From positions 3,466 through 67,465 of the forward strand of contig NZ_LMRW01000003.1 of assembly GCF_001428255.1 (NCBI RefSeq): a stretch of DNA of 64,000 bases. The letters run 5' to 3'. Positions 41,056 to 47,947 of this stretch are shown one piece after another. The position numbers and the translations under genes are program-made. Each line of letters starts with the position of its first letter. The first letter of the stretch is position 1. Source of the DNA: Agromyces sp. Soil535. GTDB lineage: Bacteria > Actinomycetota > Actinomycetes > Actinomycetales > Microbacteriaceae. The notes beneath the pieces were generated by a model, which was not told the DNA's origin, made no database searches, and saw only the letters and a program-made list of their open reading frames with translations.

Positions 41056-42078
41056 ATGGCACTCACCGACTTCCCCCGTCACTCGCTCACATTCGGGCCG
41101 AGTCCCGTGCATCCGGTGGACCGACTGAGCGACCATCTCGGCGGCGCCCGCATCTGGATGAAGCGGGAGGACGTCTCGAGCGGCCTCGCCTTCGGCGGCA
41201 ACAAGGTACGCAAGCTCGAGTACCTCGTGCCCGATGCGATCGCGAAGGGCGCCGACACGCTCGTCTCGATCGGCGCCGTGCAGTCCAACCACACTCGCCA
41301 GGTCGCCGCGGTCGCGGCGCACCTCGGCATGAAGTGCGTGCTCGTGCAGGAGCACTGGGTCGACTGGCCGGATGCCGTGCACGACCGGGTCGGCAACATC
41401 CTGCTGTCGCGGCTCATGGGCGCCGACGTGCGGCTCTCCCCCGCCGGGTTCGGCATCGGCTTCAAGGAGTCGTGGCGTCAGGCCCTCGCCGATGTCGAGG
41501 CATCCGGCGGCACGCCCTACGCCATCCCGGCGGGCGCCTCCGACCATCCGCTCGGCGGCCTCGGCTTCGCCAACTGGGCGCATGAGGTCGCCGCACAGGA
41601 GCGCGAGCTCGGCGTGTTCTTCGACACGATCGTGGTGTGCTCGGTCACCGGCTCCACGCACGCCGGCATGATCGCCGGCTTCGCCGACCTCGAGCAGAAC
41701 TTCGGCGGCCGGCCGCGGCGGGTACTCGGCATCGACGCGTCCGCGAAGATCGACGAGACCCGCGACCAGGTCGCGCGCGTCGCCCGCAACACGGCGGCGC
41801 TCATCGAGGTCGGCCGCGAACTGCGCGACGACGAGATCACCGTGCTCGACGGCTGGGCGGGCGACTTCTACGGCATCCCCGTCGAGTCGACCGACGAGGC
41901 GATCTACCTCACCGGCCGGCTCGAGGGCATCATCCTCGACCCGGTGTACGAGGGCAAGTCCATGGCGGGCCTCATCGACCTCGTGTCGAGCGGCAAGATC
42001 TCCCACGATTCGAACGTGCTCTTCGCGCACCTCGGCGGGCAGCCGGCCATCAACGCGTACAGCGGCCGCTACCACTGA
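41056..42078 (+). CDS. acdS: 1-aminocyclopropane-1-carboxylate (ACC) deaminase
   Basis: A 340-residue PLP enzyme cleaving ACC, the ethylene precursor of plants, to 2-oxobutyrate and ammonia. PLP binds K50 in [13 protein letters not shown]. Closeness to AcdS is clear along the whole length ([51 protein letters not shown]). The residues that separate true ACC deaminases from D-cysteine desulfhydrases are the ACC type: E299 in DPVYEGKS and L326 in LFAHLGG (equivalent to E295 and L322 in the Pseudomonas enzyme). ATG 41056 follows GAGAGGAG. It forms a unit with the GntR gene and supports a plant-associated habitat. Confidence 0.94.
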
Positions 42079-42346: not shown

Positions 42347-45300
42347 CTACTTCACCGTGCAGGCATCGCCGTTCACGCTGAACGAACCGGGTTCGAGATT
42401 CCCACCCCCGTTCACCCTGCCGTTGAATCCGAGCTCGACCGTCTGGCCCGGCTCGATCGTGCCGTTCCACGGCAGGTTGCCCGCCGTCACCGCTGCACCG
42501 TCCTGGTGCCACCACGCGTCGTGGCCGGCGCGCAGCGTCTGCGTGCCGGGGAACTCGAAGCCGAGCTCCCACGCCGTGTACGGCGCATCCCCGGTGTTGG
42601 TGATGGTGAGGTCCGCTGAGAAGGACTGCTTCGACGCGCCGTTGATCACGTAGGTCACCTCGCAGCGCGGCTGCGGCTCCTCGGTGAGGGTGAGGAAGGT
42701 GATCGAGTACGCCGGGAAGTCGTAGCTGAACTCGTTGCCGCCGCCCGACCACTCCCGATCCACGGGGACGAGGTGCTCGGGGTCGGCCTTCGTGTTCACG
42801 TCGCCCGGTGCGCCCACCATCTCGGTGACCGCGACGTCGCCGTCGATCGTGAGCCCCCCGGTGACCGCCACGTCGGTGCGGGCGGTCGACCCGGTCGGGT
42901 TGACGACCTTGAGCACGAGCTCACCGGTCTCCGTATCGCGCGTGACCACCTGGTAGAGCCCCTTGGCCGACGGCTCGGTGTAGCTGAGCTGCAGCACCCC
43001 GTCGAGGTAGAGCTCGATCGTCGAGCCGTCCACCACGATCTTCACGTGGTAGTCGCGCCCGGTCTCAATGCTCCGTCCCTCCACGGCGGCGACCTCGTTC
43101 GCCGATCCACCGGCGGCGTGCTGGAGGGCCATGCGGGTATTGTTCCACCCTCCGAGGTTCCACCAGTAGAAGTCGTTGGGCGCCCCGGCCGCGAAGCCGA
43201 TCAGGAAGCCCTCGGACCCGGAGATCTTGCGTGCGTCGAGTTCGAGCGTGTAATTCGACCAGTCCCGCGCATAGGCGTCGGGAGCCAGCGAGCGCGCGTC
43301 CTGGACCGAGGTCGACGACTGCACGTACTCCCCGCCGGCGAGCGCCCATGACCCGGCAACGGGCGACCACGTCGCATCCGGGCCCTCGAACGACTCGGCG
43401 TAGAGCACGTCGCTCGTCGCGTTGTCGGTGACCCGCACCTCGTCGTAGGCCGCACTCGTGCGCCACGTCGAGAGGAACACGCCGCCGTCGAGATCGGACG
43501 CCCGGTCGGCCTCCGTGTGGCTGCTGGGCACCACCTCGTCGCCGACGTTCGTCATGAACATCTGCTGCGTGTAGTAGTTCACCGACCCCCACGACTCGTC
43601 GTTGTCGAACCACATCATGTCGGGCGCCCACTGCACGTGGTTCTCGTTCGCGAACATCGGCGCGTACGAGGCGAGCTCCACGACATCCGAGTTGCGCTCG
43701 AGCCCCGTCATGTAGGCGGCCTCGGCGAGGGCGTTCCCGAACGTGTTGCCACGCGAGGCGTACTCGCCGAGGAACACGTGCGGTCCCTCGCGGTCGTACG
43801 CGTCGTACCGCTCCGAGTTCTGCAGGAACCACGACGGGTCGTTGTAGTAGTGCTCGTCGACCATGTCGACGCCCTGCGCACGGTTGAACTCCCACAGCTC
43901 GTCGAAGCGCGCGCCCGTGTCATCCGGTCCGGAGTTCGAGATGATCGTGACCTCGGGCCACGCCGCCTCGACCGCATCGCGGAACTTCGGGAAGTTCGCC
44001 TGGAACGTGTCGGTGTTCTCCTCGTTGCCGAGCCCGATGTAGCGCAGGTCGAAGGGCTCGGGATGTCCGAGCTCGGCGCGCTTCGCGCCCCACTCGGTCG
44101 TCACGTCGCCGTTCGCGAACTCGATGAGGTCGACCGTGTCCTGCACCCACCGGTCGATGCGCGCCTGGTCGGTCATCTCGGGGATGCTGCTGCCGCAGCC
44201 GTTGGCGCCGACGGACACCACGGGAAGCGGCGTCGCGCCGAGATCCTCGGCCCACTTCAGGTACTCGAGGTAGCCGATGCCGTACGACTGGTTGTACCCC
44301 CAGAAGTTCCAGTTGGCCGGCCGCTCCTCGACCGGTCCGATGGTCTCCTTCCACTGGTAGGTGCGCCGGCGGTCCTGGCCGTCCGACTCGAGGTAGGTGT
44401 TGAAGGTTCCGACGTTCGTGACGCACCCACCGGGGAAACGCAGGAACGACGGCTCGAGTGCCGCGACCTTCTCGGCGAGGTCCTTGCGGAGCACACTCGG
44501 CCCGTTCACGGGACCGACCCAGGTGTCGACCGGGAACAGCGAGACCATGTCGAGCTGCAGCGAACCCGCAGCACCGCCGAGCACCACGAGGCGCCCGGCA
44601 TCCGTGGTCGCGTTCGAGGTGACCCGCACGTCGTACTTCCGCCACGTGTCGTCGCCGGCGACGTCGACCGTGCCGAGCGCATACTGCTCGGTGCCTGTGC
44701 TGTTCTCGACGGTCACGGTGAGCTGCTGCGCCGTCGCCGACCGCGCCCAGACCGAGAAGTCGTAGCTCGCGCCCTCCTCCACGGCGATGCCGCGATCGAA
44801 CCCGGTGTTGCGCACGCCGACGCCCGCGCCATCGGATTGCACGGTGAGCGAGAACCGGTTCGAGTCGTTCAGCCAGCGCGCCCGGTCGGCGCCCACGGCG
44901 ATGGAGCCGGTGGCGCCCCGCTCGACCTCCTCCCACGCCGTGAGTCCGGTGAACGCCCGGTTGTCGGCGGTGTTGAACTCGAACGAGCGGTTTCGCACGA
45001 GCTCCGCGTAGAGCCCGCCGTCTGCGGCGTAGTTGATGTCCTCGTAGAAGATGCCGTAGAGGTCGTCGCTCATGTCGGTGCGGGGCGCGTCGGTGTCGAT
45101 CTCGATCGAGTGCTCGGTGATCTCGACCGGCACGACCGTGAGCCGAGCCGCGTCCGCCTGGTCGCCGACGACGAGCGCGCCGCCTTCACCGAGCACGAGG
45201 TACCGGTCGTCGATGGTGTGCAGGGCGGCCTTGCCGCCGCCGACGTCGGTCAGCCGGAACACGGTCGCCTCCGCGCCGTCTGCGGCGAGCGCGAGGCGGT

Positions 45301-47830
45301 CGCCGTCGATGACGAGCAGGCGATCGCTCCCCGAGTCGCGGATCACGACGGGCCGGGCAGCGGATGCCTCGGCGCCGGCCTCGCCCGCGTCGACCTCGTC
45401 GGCGATCAGCGCGAGCTGCTCGAGCGGCCGGGTGCCGTCGAGCCGGACCGTGCCGCCGTCGCCGGCGGTGAGGTACCGCTCGTCGCCGGAGCCCTCGAAC
45501 GTGAACGTGCCCTCTGGCACGATGTCGGCACCCTCGGGCGCGACGAGTGCGAAGGAGTCGAAGGTCACCTCGTGGCTCGGCGCGGAGCCGGCCGCCAGCG
45601 CGTACAGGCCGATGCGGGCGGCGTCGAAGCCGACGGTCGCGCGCGCGGCCTCGGCCCAGTCGTGGCCCGTCCAGTAGCTCGTCACGACCTCGTCACCGGT
45701 GCGCTGCACGCGGAGGTACTCGTGCGTGGAGCCGGGGCGGGAGGTGAAGGTCGAGCCGTAGACCGCGTTCTGCTCGACGCCGTTCTCGATGATCGTCGGG
45801 CCGCCGGCCGCGAAGCTGACGTTCGTCAGGCCCGCTCGCACGTAGTTGTCGAAGTCCTTCATGACGAAGAGTCCCGCGCCCTGGAAGTCGCGGCTGACCG
45901 CGCCGCTCACCGAGGTGAACGCCGTGAAGTCGCCCGCCGGCACGTCGACGAGGAACACGTTCTTCGCCGTGTTGGCGGTCTGATAGGTGTCGCCGCTCTG
46001 CGAGTGCAGGGTGAGCGAGCCGGGGTTCTCGGTGAGCGACCACGCATCTGGCACCTCACCCTCGATCGCCCATCGGCCGTCTAGTGTGTCGCCGTCGAAC
46101 TCGTCGACCCACGCGTCGGCGGGCAGTTCGGGTGCAGCGGGGGTCTCGACCGTGACGGTGGCGGTGCCCTCGGTGCCGCGCACCGATCGTGCGGTGATCG
46201 TCGCGGTCCCGTCGGCGACGGCGGTCACGACACCGGCGGCGTCGACCGTCGCGACGGCCTCGTCGCTCGAGCTCCATGCGACGCTGCGGTCCTCAGCGGT
46301 CACGGGCGTGACGGATGCCTCGAAGCCGGCGGCCTCGCCCGCTGCCAGCGTCGCCGAGTCCGGCGTCACGGTCACGCCCTCGACGAGTGCGTCGGGCTGG
46401 TAGGTCTCGAGGAGGCGCTGGTACTCACTCGCCGTCACGGGCAGCACGGTGCCGTGGCGCGGGCTCTCGGGGAGCTGCGCCTCGGGCACCGCCGTCCACT
46501 CGCCGCTCGCGAGGTCGGGGCTCTCGAAGAGCATGTAGCCTTCGCCGCCGTGGTACGAGGGTTGGTCCTGCAGCAGGTACCACGTGGCATCCGTGTTGGA
46601 CTTGAAGACCGAGGGCCCCTCGCCGTTGGTGAAGGTGCCGCCCCAGGGGTTGGGCTGACCCACGCCGACCTGCTCGGCGATGAGGTCCCAGCCGTCGCCG
46701 TCGACGACGCCCTGCGTGCGGCGCAGATCGGTCGACTTCTCCTCGCGGACGGTGAAGTCGGACTCGTCCTTGGTGAAGCGGTAGTAGGCGCCGTTCTCGA
46801 AGGCGACGGTCGAGTCGATCATGCCGCGACCGGCTCCCTGGGGCTCGTCGATCCAGACCTGGGGCTCCGAGAAGGTGACGAAGTCGCGCGTGGTCGCGTA
46901 CATCATGCGCTGGTAGCTCGTCGCGATGTCGCGCTGGTCTGCGGGGACGTCCTCGGGGTAGAGCGCCGAGGCCCAGTAGACGACGTACTCCTCGTTCGCG
47001 GCATCCCAGTACGCCTCGGGCGCCCACGTGTTTCCGGCCTTCTCTGGCGAGACCACGATCTCGCGCTGCTCCGACCAGGTGACGAGGTCGTCGGACTCCC
47101 ACACCATGATCGAGCGGCTGCCGGTCTCCTGGGCCGTGCCGAAGTCGCCGCCGCCGTATATCTTCAGGTCGGTGGCGAGCAGGAAGAACCGGTCGCCCTC
47201 GGGTGAGCGGATGAGGAACGGGTCGCGCAGGCCCTGCTCGCCGAGCGTCGAGGCGAGCACGGACTCGCCGTCATTGAGGCTCATCCATTCCTCGGGGTCG
47301 TTGCCGACGCTCGCGGCGAAGTAGATCTCCTCACCGTCGGCGGTGGACTCGCCGACGAAGTGGGGGAAGAAGTAGGCGGCGAGCGGCTCGTCGACCGGCG
47401 ACGGGGTCACCGTGGCCACGTAGTCGTGCGTCGCGACGGCGCCGTCGAAGGTCGCGGTCGCCTCGAGGGTGACGGTGGCCGGATCCGACTCGGGCGCCGG
47501 GCGCTCGACGAGTCCATCGGTGGAGACGACGGCCGGGTCGCTCGAGGTCCACGTGAGCGACGAGCCGCCGGCTCCCGTCGCCGGGAGCGTGATGTTGCCG
47601 CGAACGTCGTCGAGGTTCGGGATCGCCACGCCTGCCGCGTCGCTCGCGGCGATGTCTGCAGGCGCGGCGGCGGCCGGTGAGGCGAAGGGCGATCCGACGG
47701 CGCCCGCAGGGGCGAGCAGGGCGAGCGTGAGCGCCGCGCACAGCGCGACGCCCGAGCGCCTGCCGATCCTTCGACGCCGGGGCGGGTGCTCGGCCACCGA
47801 CGGTGGAGCAGTGCTGCTGGACCTGGTCAT
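42347..47830 (-). CDS. Secreted GH43-GH51-CBM2 fusion, arabinofuranosidase/arabinanase type
   Basis: A secreted protein of about 1827 residues (numbering here from ATG 47833). The signal region is about 1-57. A short Big-like stretch (65-145) precedes a GH43 five-blade propeller (150-480) with D204 (LRDPFL), D340 (RGMIDSTV) and E405 (NGEGPSVF) as the catalytic triad. A Big_2 domain follows (487-565), then a LamG/CBM66-like jelly roll (570-765), a poorly defined stretch (770-903), GH51 (about 905-1710) with acid/base E1271 (IGLGNEEN) and nucleophile E1357 (VFLGEYAS) and an inserted concanavalin-like module (1480-1620), and CBM2 (1720-1828) with C1724/C1825. GH43 and GH51 both act on alpha-L-arabinofuranosides. 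ATG 47830 is better spaced from GAGAGAGG than 47833. Twin operators lie upstream. Confidence 0.9.
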   Translation of the reverse strand: MTRSSSTAPPSVAEHPPRRRRIGRRSGVALCAALTLALLAPAGAVGSPFASPAAAAPADIAASDAAGVAIPNLDDVRGNITLPATGAGGSSLTWTSSDPAVVSTDGLVERPAPESDPATVTLEATATFDGAVATHDYVATVTPSPVDEPLAAYFFPHFVGESTADGEEIYFAASVGNDPEEWMSLNDGESVLASTLGEQGLRDPFLIRSPEGDRFFLLATDLKIYGGGDFGTAQETGSRSIMVWESDDLVTWSEQREIVVSPEKAGNTWAPEAYWDAANEEYVVYWASALYPEDVPADQRDIATSYQRMMYATTRDFVTFSEPQVWIDEPQGAGRGMIDSTVAFENGAYYRFTKDESDFTVREEKSTDLRRTQGVVDGDGWDLIAEQVGVGQPNPWGGTFTNGEGPSVFKSNTDATWYLLQDQPSYHGGEGYMLFESPDLASGEWTAVPEAQLPESPRHGTVLPVTASEYQRLLETYQPDALVEGVTVTPDSATLAAGEAAGFEASVTPVTAEDRSVAWSSSDEAVATVDAAGVVTAVADGTATITARSVRGTEGTATVTVETPAAPELPADAWVDEFDGDTLDGRWAIEGEVPDAWSLTENPGSLTLHSQSGDTYQTANTAKNVFLVDVPAGDFTAFTSVSGAVSRDFQGAGLFVMKDFDNYVRAGLTNVSFAAGGPTIIENGVEQNAVYGSTFTSRPGSTHEYLRVQRTGDEVVTSYWTGHDWAEAARATVGFDAARIGLYALAAGSAPSHEVTFDSFALVAPEGADIVPEGTFTFEGSGDERYLTAGDGGTVRLDGTRPLEQLALIADEVDAGEAGAEASAARPVVIRDSGSDRLLVIDGDRLALAADGAEATVFRLTDVGGGKAALHTIDDRYLVLGEGGALVVGDQADAARLTVVPVEITEHSIEIDTDAPRTDMSDDLYGIFYEDINYAADGGLYAELVRNRSFEFNTADNRAFTGLTAWEEVERGATGSIAVGADRARWLNDSNRFSLTVQSDGAGVGVRNTGFDRGIAVEEGASYDFSVWARSATAQQLTVTVENSTGTEQYALGTVDVAGDDTWRKYDVRVTSNATTDAGRLVVLGGAAGSLQLDMVSLFPVDTWVGPVNGPSVLRKDLAEKVAALEPSFLRFPGGCVTNVGTFNTYLESDGQDRRRTYQWKETIGPVEERPANWNFWGYNQSYGIGYLEYLKWAEDLGATPLPVVSVGANGCGSSIPEMTDQARIDRWVQDTVDLIEFANGDVTTEWGAKRAELGHPEPFDLRYIGLGNEENTDTFQANFPKFRDAVEAAWPEVTIISNSGPDDTGARFDELWEFNRAQGVDMVDEHYYNDPSWFLQNSERYDAYDREGPHVFLGEYASRGNTFGNALAEAAYMTGLERNSDVVELASYAPMFANENHVQWAPDMMWFDNDESWGSVNYYTQQMFMTNVGDEVVPSSHTEADRASDLDGGVFLSTWRTSAAYDEVRVTDNATSDVLYAESFEGPDATWSPVAGSWALAGGEYVQSSTSVQDARSLAPDAYARDWSNYTLELDARKISGSEGFLIGFAAGAPNDFYWWNLGGWNNTRMALQHAAGGSANEVAAVEGRSIETGRDYHVKIVVDGSTIELYLDGVLQLSYTEPSAKGLYQVVTRDTETGELVLKVVNPTGSTARTDVAVTGGLTIDGDVAVTEMVGAPGDVNTKADPEHLVPVDREWSGGGNEFSYDFPAYSITFLTLTEEPQPRCEVTYVINGASKQSFSADLTITNTGDAPYTAWELGFEFPGTQTLRAGHDAWWHQDGAAVTAGNLPWNGTIEPGQTVELGFNGRVNGGGNLEPGSFSVNGDACTVK

Positions 47831-47919
47831 CATCGACCTCTCTCTCGTCTTCGAGTGGGCGCGCTCGTGCGCGCCACGGCGCGGAGGGTCTGCGGCCTGT
47901 CATGCGGCGCCGTGTGCGT

Positions 47920-47947
47920 TGTGAGCGCTAACATGTGAACGCTAACA
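47920..47947. promoter_or_regulatory. Abutting twin LacI-family operators
   Basis: TGTGAGCGCTAACA (47920-47933) and TGTGAACGCTAACA (47934-47947) stand directly next to each other, both with the central CG of LacI-family sites. They lie about 90 bp upstream of the GH43-GH51 gene. They differ from the A and B operators, so a third regulator, not obviously encoded in the window, is expected. Confidence 0.75.

Follow-up and report, generated by a model that had tools for sequence, protein, structure and literature searches.

A 64,000-nucleotide stretch of the Agromyces sp. Soil535 genome (contig NZ_LMRW01000003.1, positions 3,466 to 67,465 of the forward strand; hereafter the window) encodes one polypeptide that carries both a GH43 and a GH51 glycoside hydrolase domain. 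We conclude that this protein is probably (roughly 0.8) a secreted two-site alpha-L-arabinofuranosidase belonging to an L-arabinofuranose utilisation regulon. Its open reading frame (ORF) is a single uninterrupted frame of 1828 amino acids on the minus strand, running from 47833 to 42347. An original prediction, made from the letters of the window, had placed one polypeptide of about 1830 residues at 42347-47830. The single chain was confirmed, and the start was moved to 47833, position 47830 being the second of two adjacent ATGs. Multicatalytic arabinofuranosidases are already known as a kind; the present case adds to them a regulon link and a fusion found in both orders. What is new here is the operator-based connection of a solitary gene with the uptake and breakdown of arabinose.

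Both catalytic domains are intact

Enzymes of families GH43 and GH51 both free terminal L-arabinofuranose, the former by an inverting and the latter by a retaining mechanism. To compare the window protein with its relatives, we scanned 84,980 species genomes with a pattern for the GH51 module and kept the best 80 named loci of at least 576 relatives (at least 595 matching stretches). Segments of the window protein then served as queries against the stop-to-stop ORFs of these 80 loci.

The GH51 part of the protein was readily recognized. Its barrel scored 195 bits with Pfam ASD1_dom (cut-off 22.2) and its C-terminal sandwich scored 100 bits with Alpha-L-AF_C (cut-off 27). A structural model of residues 906-1828 (predicted local distance difference test, pLDDT, 86.5) had as its best match MgGH51, 6zps (Foldseek E 8.5e-46; TM score 0.86 by target length). 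The acid/base and nucleophile of MgGH51, described as E351 and E429 (PMC7604909), align with E1271 and E1357 of the window protein. Residues E931, N1270, E1271, Y1329, Y1330 and E1357 were unchanged in 80 of 80 aligned sequences.

Assignment of the GH43 domain required more care. The Pfam GH43 model PF04616 did not match the window protein at E values up to 0.1, that is, its gathering score was not reached; on homologues it gave 27.2 bits (L021) and 32.2 bits (L060), against a cut-off of 32.2. The NCBIfam model NF052546 (BAD_1527, GH43_22) matched residues 152-477 with 193.9 bits. This is the best-matching GH43 model in NCBIfam, and the score is below the curated cut-off of 500, so the domain is related to BAD_1527 and is not an equivalog of it. 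In an AlphaFold2 (AF2) model of residues 60-930 (pLDDT 91; predicted TM score, pTM, 0.65), model residues 90-392 aligned with the GH43 chains 3qz4 and 4qqs (Z 21.1; root-mean-square deviation, rmsd, 3.2 A), a match to a five-bladed propeller. Single-domain rows were used for this comparison; rows pairing the propeller with a jelly roll had an rmsd of about 20-27 A. A GH32 levanase (7znr, Z 21.5) and a GH159 chain (7zei, Z 21.3) tied with the GH43 chains, and the fold by itself therefore cannot single out GH43. We base the assignment on sequence similarity and on the catalytic triad, and the predicted fold is consistent with it. The putative triad D204/D340/E405 is conserved as D, D and E in all 58 domains of the alignment. 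Its spacing equals that of D58, D194 and E259, the triad given for BAD_1527 (PMC11264647).

The original prediction that the catalytic residues of both domains are complete was thus upheld, and the alignments revealed no loss of catalytic residues in either family. By eye, the N-terminus has a basic stretch, then a hydrophobic stretch and then an Ala-rich cleavage-like sequence. Two intact arabinofuranosidase-type catalytic domains hence appear to be joined in one chain that is apparently secreted, as had been proposed.

A shared putative operator connects the gene with arabinose import and breakdown

Two abutting 14-bp palindrome-like boxes, TGTGAGCGCTAACA and TGTGAACGCTAACA, lie 87-114 bp upstream of the GH43-GH51 gene. 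We take tandem palindromes of this sort to be LacI-type operators. The pattern TGTNANCGNTNACA, with up to one mismatch, had two matches in the window, both at this gene. The mean for shuffled sequence was 0.61, and 12 of 100 shuffles reached two sites, so the weight is carried by the position of the sites and by their repeats elsewhere in the genome. Searching the whole genome (4.83 Mb) with TGTNAGCGCTNACA, again with up to one mismatch, gave nine sites, compared with three for the reversed control. Seven of the nine fit an arabinose set: two at the GH43-GH51 gene, four in a cluster containing araD, a kinase gene, araA and YtfQRT-like transporter genes, and one at a second double-GH43 gene.

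In the cluster (C25:197109-204146), one site lies 124-137 bp before araD and three lie before ytfQ, two of these in tandem, 95-122 bp from the ytfQ start. The araD product, L-ribulose-5-phosphate 4-epimerase, scored 375 bits (cut-off 251); an FGGY kinase and L-arabinose isomerase (790 bits; cut-off 622) follow. The cluster transporter fails the equivalog cut-offs (YtfQ 340 vs 510, YtfR 680 vs 850, YtfT 337 vs 535), these still being its best models. A LacI gene adjoins the transporter (L103:13244-14281). The complete run of genes (L103:1110-14281, on contig C25 of the same genome) comprises araD, the FGGY kinase, L-arabinose isomerase, the YtfQRT-like transporter, a second permease (by eye) and the LacI gene.

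The remaining site of the arabinose set lies 64-77 bp before the second double-GH43 gene. The product of that gene (L015:10634-15232, also on C25) is secreted-looking, with LamG, aBig_2, a GH43_22-like domain and a second GH43 domain, and it resembles BlArafE. The two sites outside the set lie before a pullulanase-like gene and between two ORFs that look unrelated (by eye). The box TGTAAGCGCTTGCA stands directly before the pullulanase/alpha-amylase-like gene (L113:4001-8000, contig C5 of the same genome), and it probably belongs to another LacI-type regulator.

The tandem boxes were also present before the orthologues in Agromyces albus and in two further Agromyces genomes, G007 and G020. An exact site within 250 bp of the ORF start was found at 39 of the 80 loci: 4 of 23 in which GH43 precedes GH51 in the same ORF (GH43-first), 33 of 43 unfused loci with a GH43_C2 module in front of GH51, 2 of 13 unfused loci in which no such module was detected, and the single locus with a C-terminal GH43 not among them (0 of 1). 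Across the 80 loci, 68 of 90 sites were near sites, compared with 3.3 expected if they were evenly spread; the reversed pattern gave no site. Related LacI regulons for arabinose and arabino-oligosaccharides have been described in bifidobacteria (PMC5928203). The operator search gives a testable regulon for Agromyces-like bacteria.

YtfQRT-like ATP-binding cassette (ABC) transporter genes recur at the relatives' loci as well. Within the 6 kb fetched, they were found at 18 of 23 GH43-first loci, 29 of 43 unfused loci with GH43_C2, 2 of 13 without GH43_C2 detected, and 0 of 1 with a C-terminal GH43, the best NCBIfam models being YtfQ, YtfR and YtfT, all below cut-off. A GH51 of ArfA type lies near 9 of the 23 GH43-first loci (the one at L029 scored 637 bits against 625). 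These transporter and ArfA counts are not independent, because related loci share descent.

Beta-D-galactofuranosides and alpha-L-arabinofuranosides are similar in shape, and the models that fit the co-regulated transporter best are of the galactofuranose type, as would suit an enzyme whose target is beta-D-galactofuranose instead of, or besides, alpha-L-arabinofuranose. Some GH43_34 enzymes are indeed galactofuranosidases (PMC8939339). We consider such a target very unlikely, given that the operator-bearing cluster holds araD and L-arabinose isomerase, and that the closest enzymes of GH43_22 and GH51 to have been characterised are arabinofuranosidases (PMC11264647, PMC7604909). YtfQ homologues bind L-arabinofuranose too: the one from Shewanella is described as binding it specifically, and transporters of this kind are often encoded alongside arabinose and arabinofuranosidase genes (PMC10191376). 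Uptake of the furanose form of L-arabinose would have a parallel in GafABCD (YtfQRT-YjfF) of Shewanella sp. ANA-3, a member of a transporter family linked to secreted arabinofuranosidase genes, which takes up the released furanose directly. Unlike in that proteobacterial system, the transporter here lies on another contig and is tied to the enzyme by operators (PMC10191376).

The fusion is frequent among close relatives, and its GH43-first form has one apparent origin

The original prediction held that fusions of GH43 and GH51 appear uncommon. Among the 80 loci, GH43 lies N-terminal to GH51 in one ORF at 23 and C-terminal to it at one (Cellulomonas carbonis). GH43 was not detected in the GH51 ORF at the other 56, of which 43 have a GH43_C2 module in front and 13 had none detected. 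The 24 fused loci come from 11 named genera (Agromyces, Isoptericola, Myceligenerans, Promicromonospora, Antribacter, Kocuria, Zhihengliuella, Arthrobacter, Krasilnikoviella, Glutamicibacter and Cellulomonas) and an Actinomycetales metagenome-assembled genome. Because only the best-matching loci were kept, 24 of 80 is a share among close relatives and not a frequency in nature. For these relatives we rejected rarity of the fusion, and a GH51-GH43 hybrid had been published in 2013 (PMC3662619); the reason originally given for interest in the protein falls with it. Module content varies among the GH43-first proteins: 10 of 23 lack the middle modules and are arranged as GH43-CBM4-GH51, and a recognisable CBM2 like that of the window protein is present in 3 of 23.

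We built quick maximum-likelihood trees of 84 CBM4-GH51 units and of 62 GH43 domains, with midpoint rooting and the Shimodaira-Hasegawa-like approximate likelihood ratio test (SH-aLRT) as the sole measure of support. In the GH51 tree, the 26 GH43-first rows fall on one side of one branch (SH-aLRT 100), and no row lacking GH43 lies among them. This tree requires one change between N-terminal GH43 and any other state, and two between fused and not fused. The corresponding clade of the GH43 tree (SH-aLRT 100) has 27 rows, 26 of them fused and one, from Myceligenerans, a stand-alone gene; the latter is a gain or loss that is not visible on the GH51 tree. Both trees point to a single origin of the sampled GH43-first fusions.

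The sister of the fused GH43 clade consists of 12 GH43 domains, each encoded beside an unfused GH51 (joint support 90, own support 94, neither starred). They are from Nocardioides (7), Saccharothrix (3), Cellulomonas composti and Flavimobilis, and at these loci the GH43 frame is just downstream of GH51 on the same strand. The branch after that contains the C-terminal domain of C. carbonis and a Georgenia neighbour. From the GH43 tree and the gene order it follows that one and the same GH43/GH51 pair is found both as adjacent genes and fused in either order. This bounded family, with GH43-first and GH51-first fusions and the same two domains as neighbouring genes, is a natural test of any benefit from joining two debranching enzymes in a single chain.

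Within the genus, the orthologue in G007 is 87% identical over residues 2-1828. The closest named organism among the 80 best loci is A. albus (89% over the GH51 module), in which ligase, pyridoxal phosphate (PLP)-dependent enzyme and TfoX neighbours are shared with the window. The copy in G020 (L017 / G020:C1:620115-625591) has a frame change near residue 236 and an in-frame TAG, with the tandem operators intact. A pseudogene in the window itself was ruled out, since the ORF is intact.

Proposed function and its alternatives

We propose that the GH43_22-like propeller (inverting) and the GH51 barrel (retaining) would each remove terminal alpha-L-arabinofuranosyl branches from plant cell-wall polysaccharide. 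The substrate would most likely be arabinoxylan, and arabinan or arabinogalactan is possible. The two sites would probably take different linkages or substitution states, one cut exposing the other's substrate. A LacI-family repressor is expected to bind the tandem palindromes upstream of the gene. The freed sugar would be imported by the furanose transporter of YtfQRT/GafABCD type and passed through L-arabinose isomerase, the kinase and L-ribulose-5-phosphate 4-epimerase, whose genes lie elsewhere in the genome and carry the same operator.

CBM2 modules suit cell-wall polysaccharide, which counts against the possibility that the substrate is the side chains of arabinogalactan-protein (AGP) and not xylan, as with BlArafE. 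The nearest GH43 model in NCBIfam, BAD_1527, belongs to GH43_22, a subfamily that includes the AGP-active BlArafA and BlArafE (PMC8939339), and the same operator precedes the second protein of this genome, with its GH43_22-like and second GH43 domains. Against this, BAD_1527 itself acts on arabinoxylan and arabinan and, as reported in PMC11264647, not on larch arabinogalactan, and MgGH51, the nearest solved GH51, debranches arabinoxylan (PMC7604909). An AGP substrate is thus possible, and we hold it distinctly less probable than not. The characterised GH43_22 domains act mainly on branch linkages in arabinoxylan, arabinan or AGP, BlArafB being described as cutting the arabinan backbone (PMC8939339, PMC11264647).

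The suggestion that one protein might cut two arabinosyl linkages, made in the original prediction, is plausible by analogy with BlArafE (GH43_22 and GH43_34) of Bifidobacterium longum. BlArafE is a secreted protein, has a GH43_22-type domain followed by a second arabinofuranosidase, and is described as cutting two linkages in a two-step order within one chain. It differs in that its second domain is GH43_34 and not GH51, a transmembrane region holds it at the cell, and its action was shown on AGP of gum arabic (PMC8939339). The GH51 side has its counterpart in MgGH51 of Meripilus giganteus (6ZPS), which shares the CBM4-like domain, barrel, C-terminal sandwich, acid/base and nucleophile; as described, it has a single catalytic domain and no concanavalin-A (ConA)-like insert. 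MgGH51 cuts singly substituted xylose, and full debranching needs a separate GH43, AXHd3, for doubly substituted residues (PMC7604909).

Several observations weigh against our proposal. Because the GH43 match reached 194 bits against a cut-off of 500, the linkage preference of the nearest NCBIfam model is not transferable. Near full-length copies were found in just 3 of 24 congeners: G007, G014 (cut by a contig end) and G020 (broken). Of the 23 GH43-first loci, 19 have no exact operator within 250 bp of the start of the ORF; one of these (L036) starts at a contig end. The sole near-match in Agromyces humatus (L023) sits far away. This low operator share among the fused loci weighs against a simple story. 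Transporter genes are close by in 16 of these 19 loci; our guess is that their promoters could lie further upstream. Activity data on this protein or its orthologues did not turn up in the literature searched. Finally, the hybrid published in 2013, from fosmid G12 of a termite-gut Bacteroides, also has GH43, GH51 and CBM4 in one chain, unlike the window protein in the opposite order (CBM4-GH51-GH43) and with no CBM2 listed. Its measured activity on p-nitrophenyl arabinofuranoside (pNP-Araf), 22.2 U/mg, equals the 22.9 U/mg of another GH51 enzyme from that fosmid, so that on this substrate no benefit of fusion was seen for the hybrid (PMC3662619).

Those equal activities, and the lack of xylosidase activity reported for the hybrid (PMC3662619), would fit a protein in which a single site matters, the GH51 barrel doing nearly all the hydrolysis and GH43 serving as a weak or binding module, with no two-step machine. 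We think this unlikely for the window protein, since the GH43 triad is invariant (58 of 58), the 26-row fused clade contains no GH51 row without GH43, and related GH43_22 domains are active enzymes (PMC8939339, PMC11264647).

An extension of the two-site proposal, to which we give little credence, is that enzyme and co-regulated transporter work as a single capture system. In such a system the inverting GH43 and the retaining GH51 would release L-arabinofuranose as two anomers side by side, and a GafABCD-like importer under the same LacI operator would take the furanose before the pyranose forms. If true, selection for coupling of enzyme and importer would explain the occurrence of GH43 and GH51 as neighbours, as the GH43-first fusion and as the GH51-first fusion of C. 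carbonis.

Module organisation and neighbouring genes

From the N-terminus, the protein consists of a signal-like region, aBig_2, GH43, Big_2, GH43_C2/DUF1349, an unannotated module (residues 766-905), a CBM4-like domain, the GH51 barrel, the C-terminal sandwich with an insert, and CBM2 (Table 1). The Big_2, jelly-roll and CBM2 modules listed originally were all recovered; aBig_2, the beta-trefoil-like module, the CBM4-like domain and the ConA-like insert had been overlooked.

Table 1. Predicted features of the GH43-GH51 gene and its upstream region (window coordinates)
Feature	Position	Strand	Basis
Predicted secreted GH43-GH51 double arabinofuranosidase ORF, 1828 aa	42347..47833	-	ORF calling; 87% identical G007 orthologue
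Putative signal peptide region, about residues 1-57	47663..47833	-	By eye: RRRRIGRR, hydrophobic stretch, AxA
aBig_2, residues 73-143	47405..47617	-	Pfam PF20578, E 1.1e-19
GH43 five-bladed propeller (GH43_22-like), residues 147-477; base D204, pKa modulator D340, acid E405	46403..47395	-	NF052546, AF2 model, triad
Big_2 Ig-like domain, residues 484-557	46163..46384	-	Pfam PF02368
GH43_C2/DUF1349 ConA-like jelly roll, residues 577-763	45545..46105	-	Pfam PF17851, PF07081; 3o12 Z 21.7, rmsd 2.5 A
Unannotated beta-trefoil-like module, residues 766-905	45119..45538	-	12 predicted strands; weak profile matches
CBM4-like N-domain of GH51 unit, residues 944-1085	44579..45004	-	Pfam CBM_4_9 42.8 bits; alignment with MgGH51 6zps starts at residue 919
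GH51 (beta/alpha)8 catalytic domain, residues 1123-1359; acid/base E1271, nucleophile E1357	43757..44467	-	Pfam ASD1_dom E 1.5e-57
GH51 C-terminal beta-sandwich, residues 1360-1710, interrupted by insert	42704..43756	-	Pfam Alpha-L-AF_C
ConA-like insert in GH51 C-terminal domain, about residues 1465-1625	42959..43441	-	Laminin_G_3, 3keto-disac_hyd, both below cut-off
CBM2, residues 1724-1825	42359..42664	-	Pfam CBM_2 79 bits, cut-off 24
Putative LacI-type palindromic operator TGTGAGCGCTAACA, 87 bp upstream of start codon	47920..47933	.	Pattern search
Putative second operator TGTGAACGCTAACA, abutting the first	47934..47947	.	Pattern search

The CBM2 reference 1exg has three surface tryptophans; at what we take to be the corresponding positions, the CBM2 of the window protein has A, H and W, and so departs from the CBM2a tryptophan pattern at two of the three. 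By eye, the CBM2 copies at four related loci (L020, L023, L004 and L006) lack the same two tryptophans, and that of Antribacter (L036) keeps all three. With two of three binding tryptophans missing, anchoring to cellulose is doubtful, and the cellulose or xylan anchoring proposed in the original prediction is weakened accordingly. A nearby WW pair may substitute for the missing residues. The operators of the gene connect it with arabinose release more convincingly than its CBM does.

The ConA-like insert in the GH51 C-terminal domain is missing from MgGH51 6zps, where the alignment jumps from residue 1438 to residue 1626, and its segment is present in the GH51 ORF at 80 of 80 loci. The module at residues 766-905 (about 140 amino acids) is conserved, occurring in 49 rows including that of the window, and has no Pfam match above cut-off; the best is Fascin (E 0.12, below cut-off). 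Its profile matches are to the designed trefoils 3pg0 and 3o4a and are weak (E 0.003-0.01). Structural alignment barely covered these residues, and the beta-trefoil reading therefore relies on the strand count and the weak profile matches.

No polysaccharide-utilisation cluster was seen among the neighbours of the gene that we examined, the search not extending to the remaining genes of the 64 kb. By Pfam, these neighbours encode a DNA ligase, a GntR/FCD regulator, a PLP-dependent enzyme (by eye a 1-aminocyclopropane-1-carboxylate, ACC, deaminase) and TfoX_N. The gene for the ACC-deaminase-like enzyme, at 41056-42078 on the plus strand, adjoins that for the GntR regulator. In A. albus and G020 the ligase, PLP-enzyme and TfoX genes stay together, with the glycoside hydrolase gene across the ligase.

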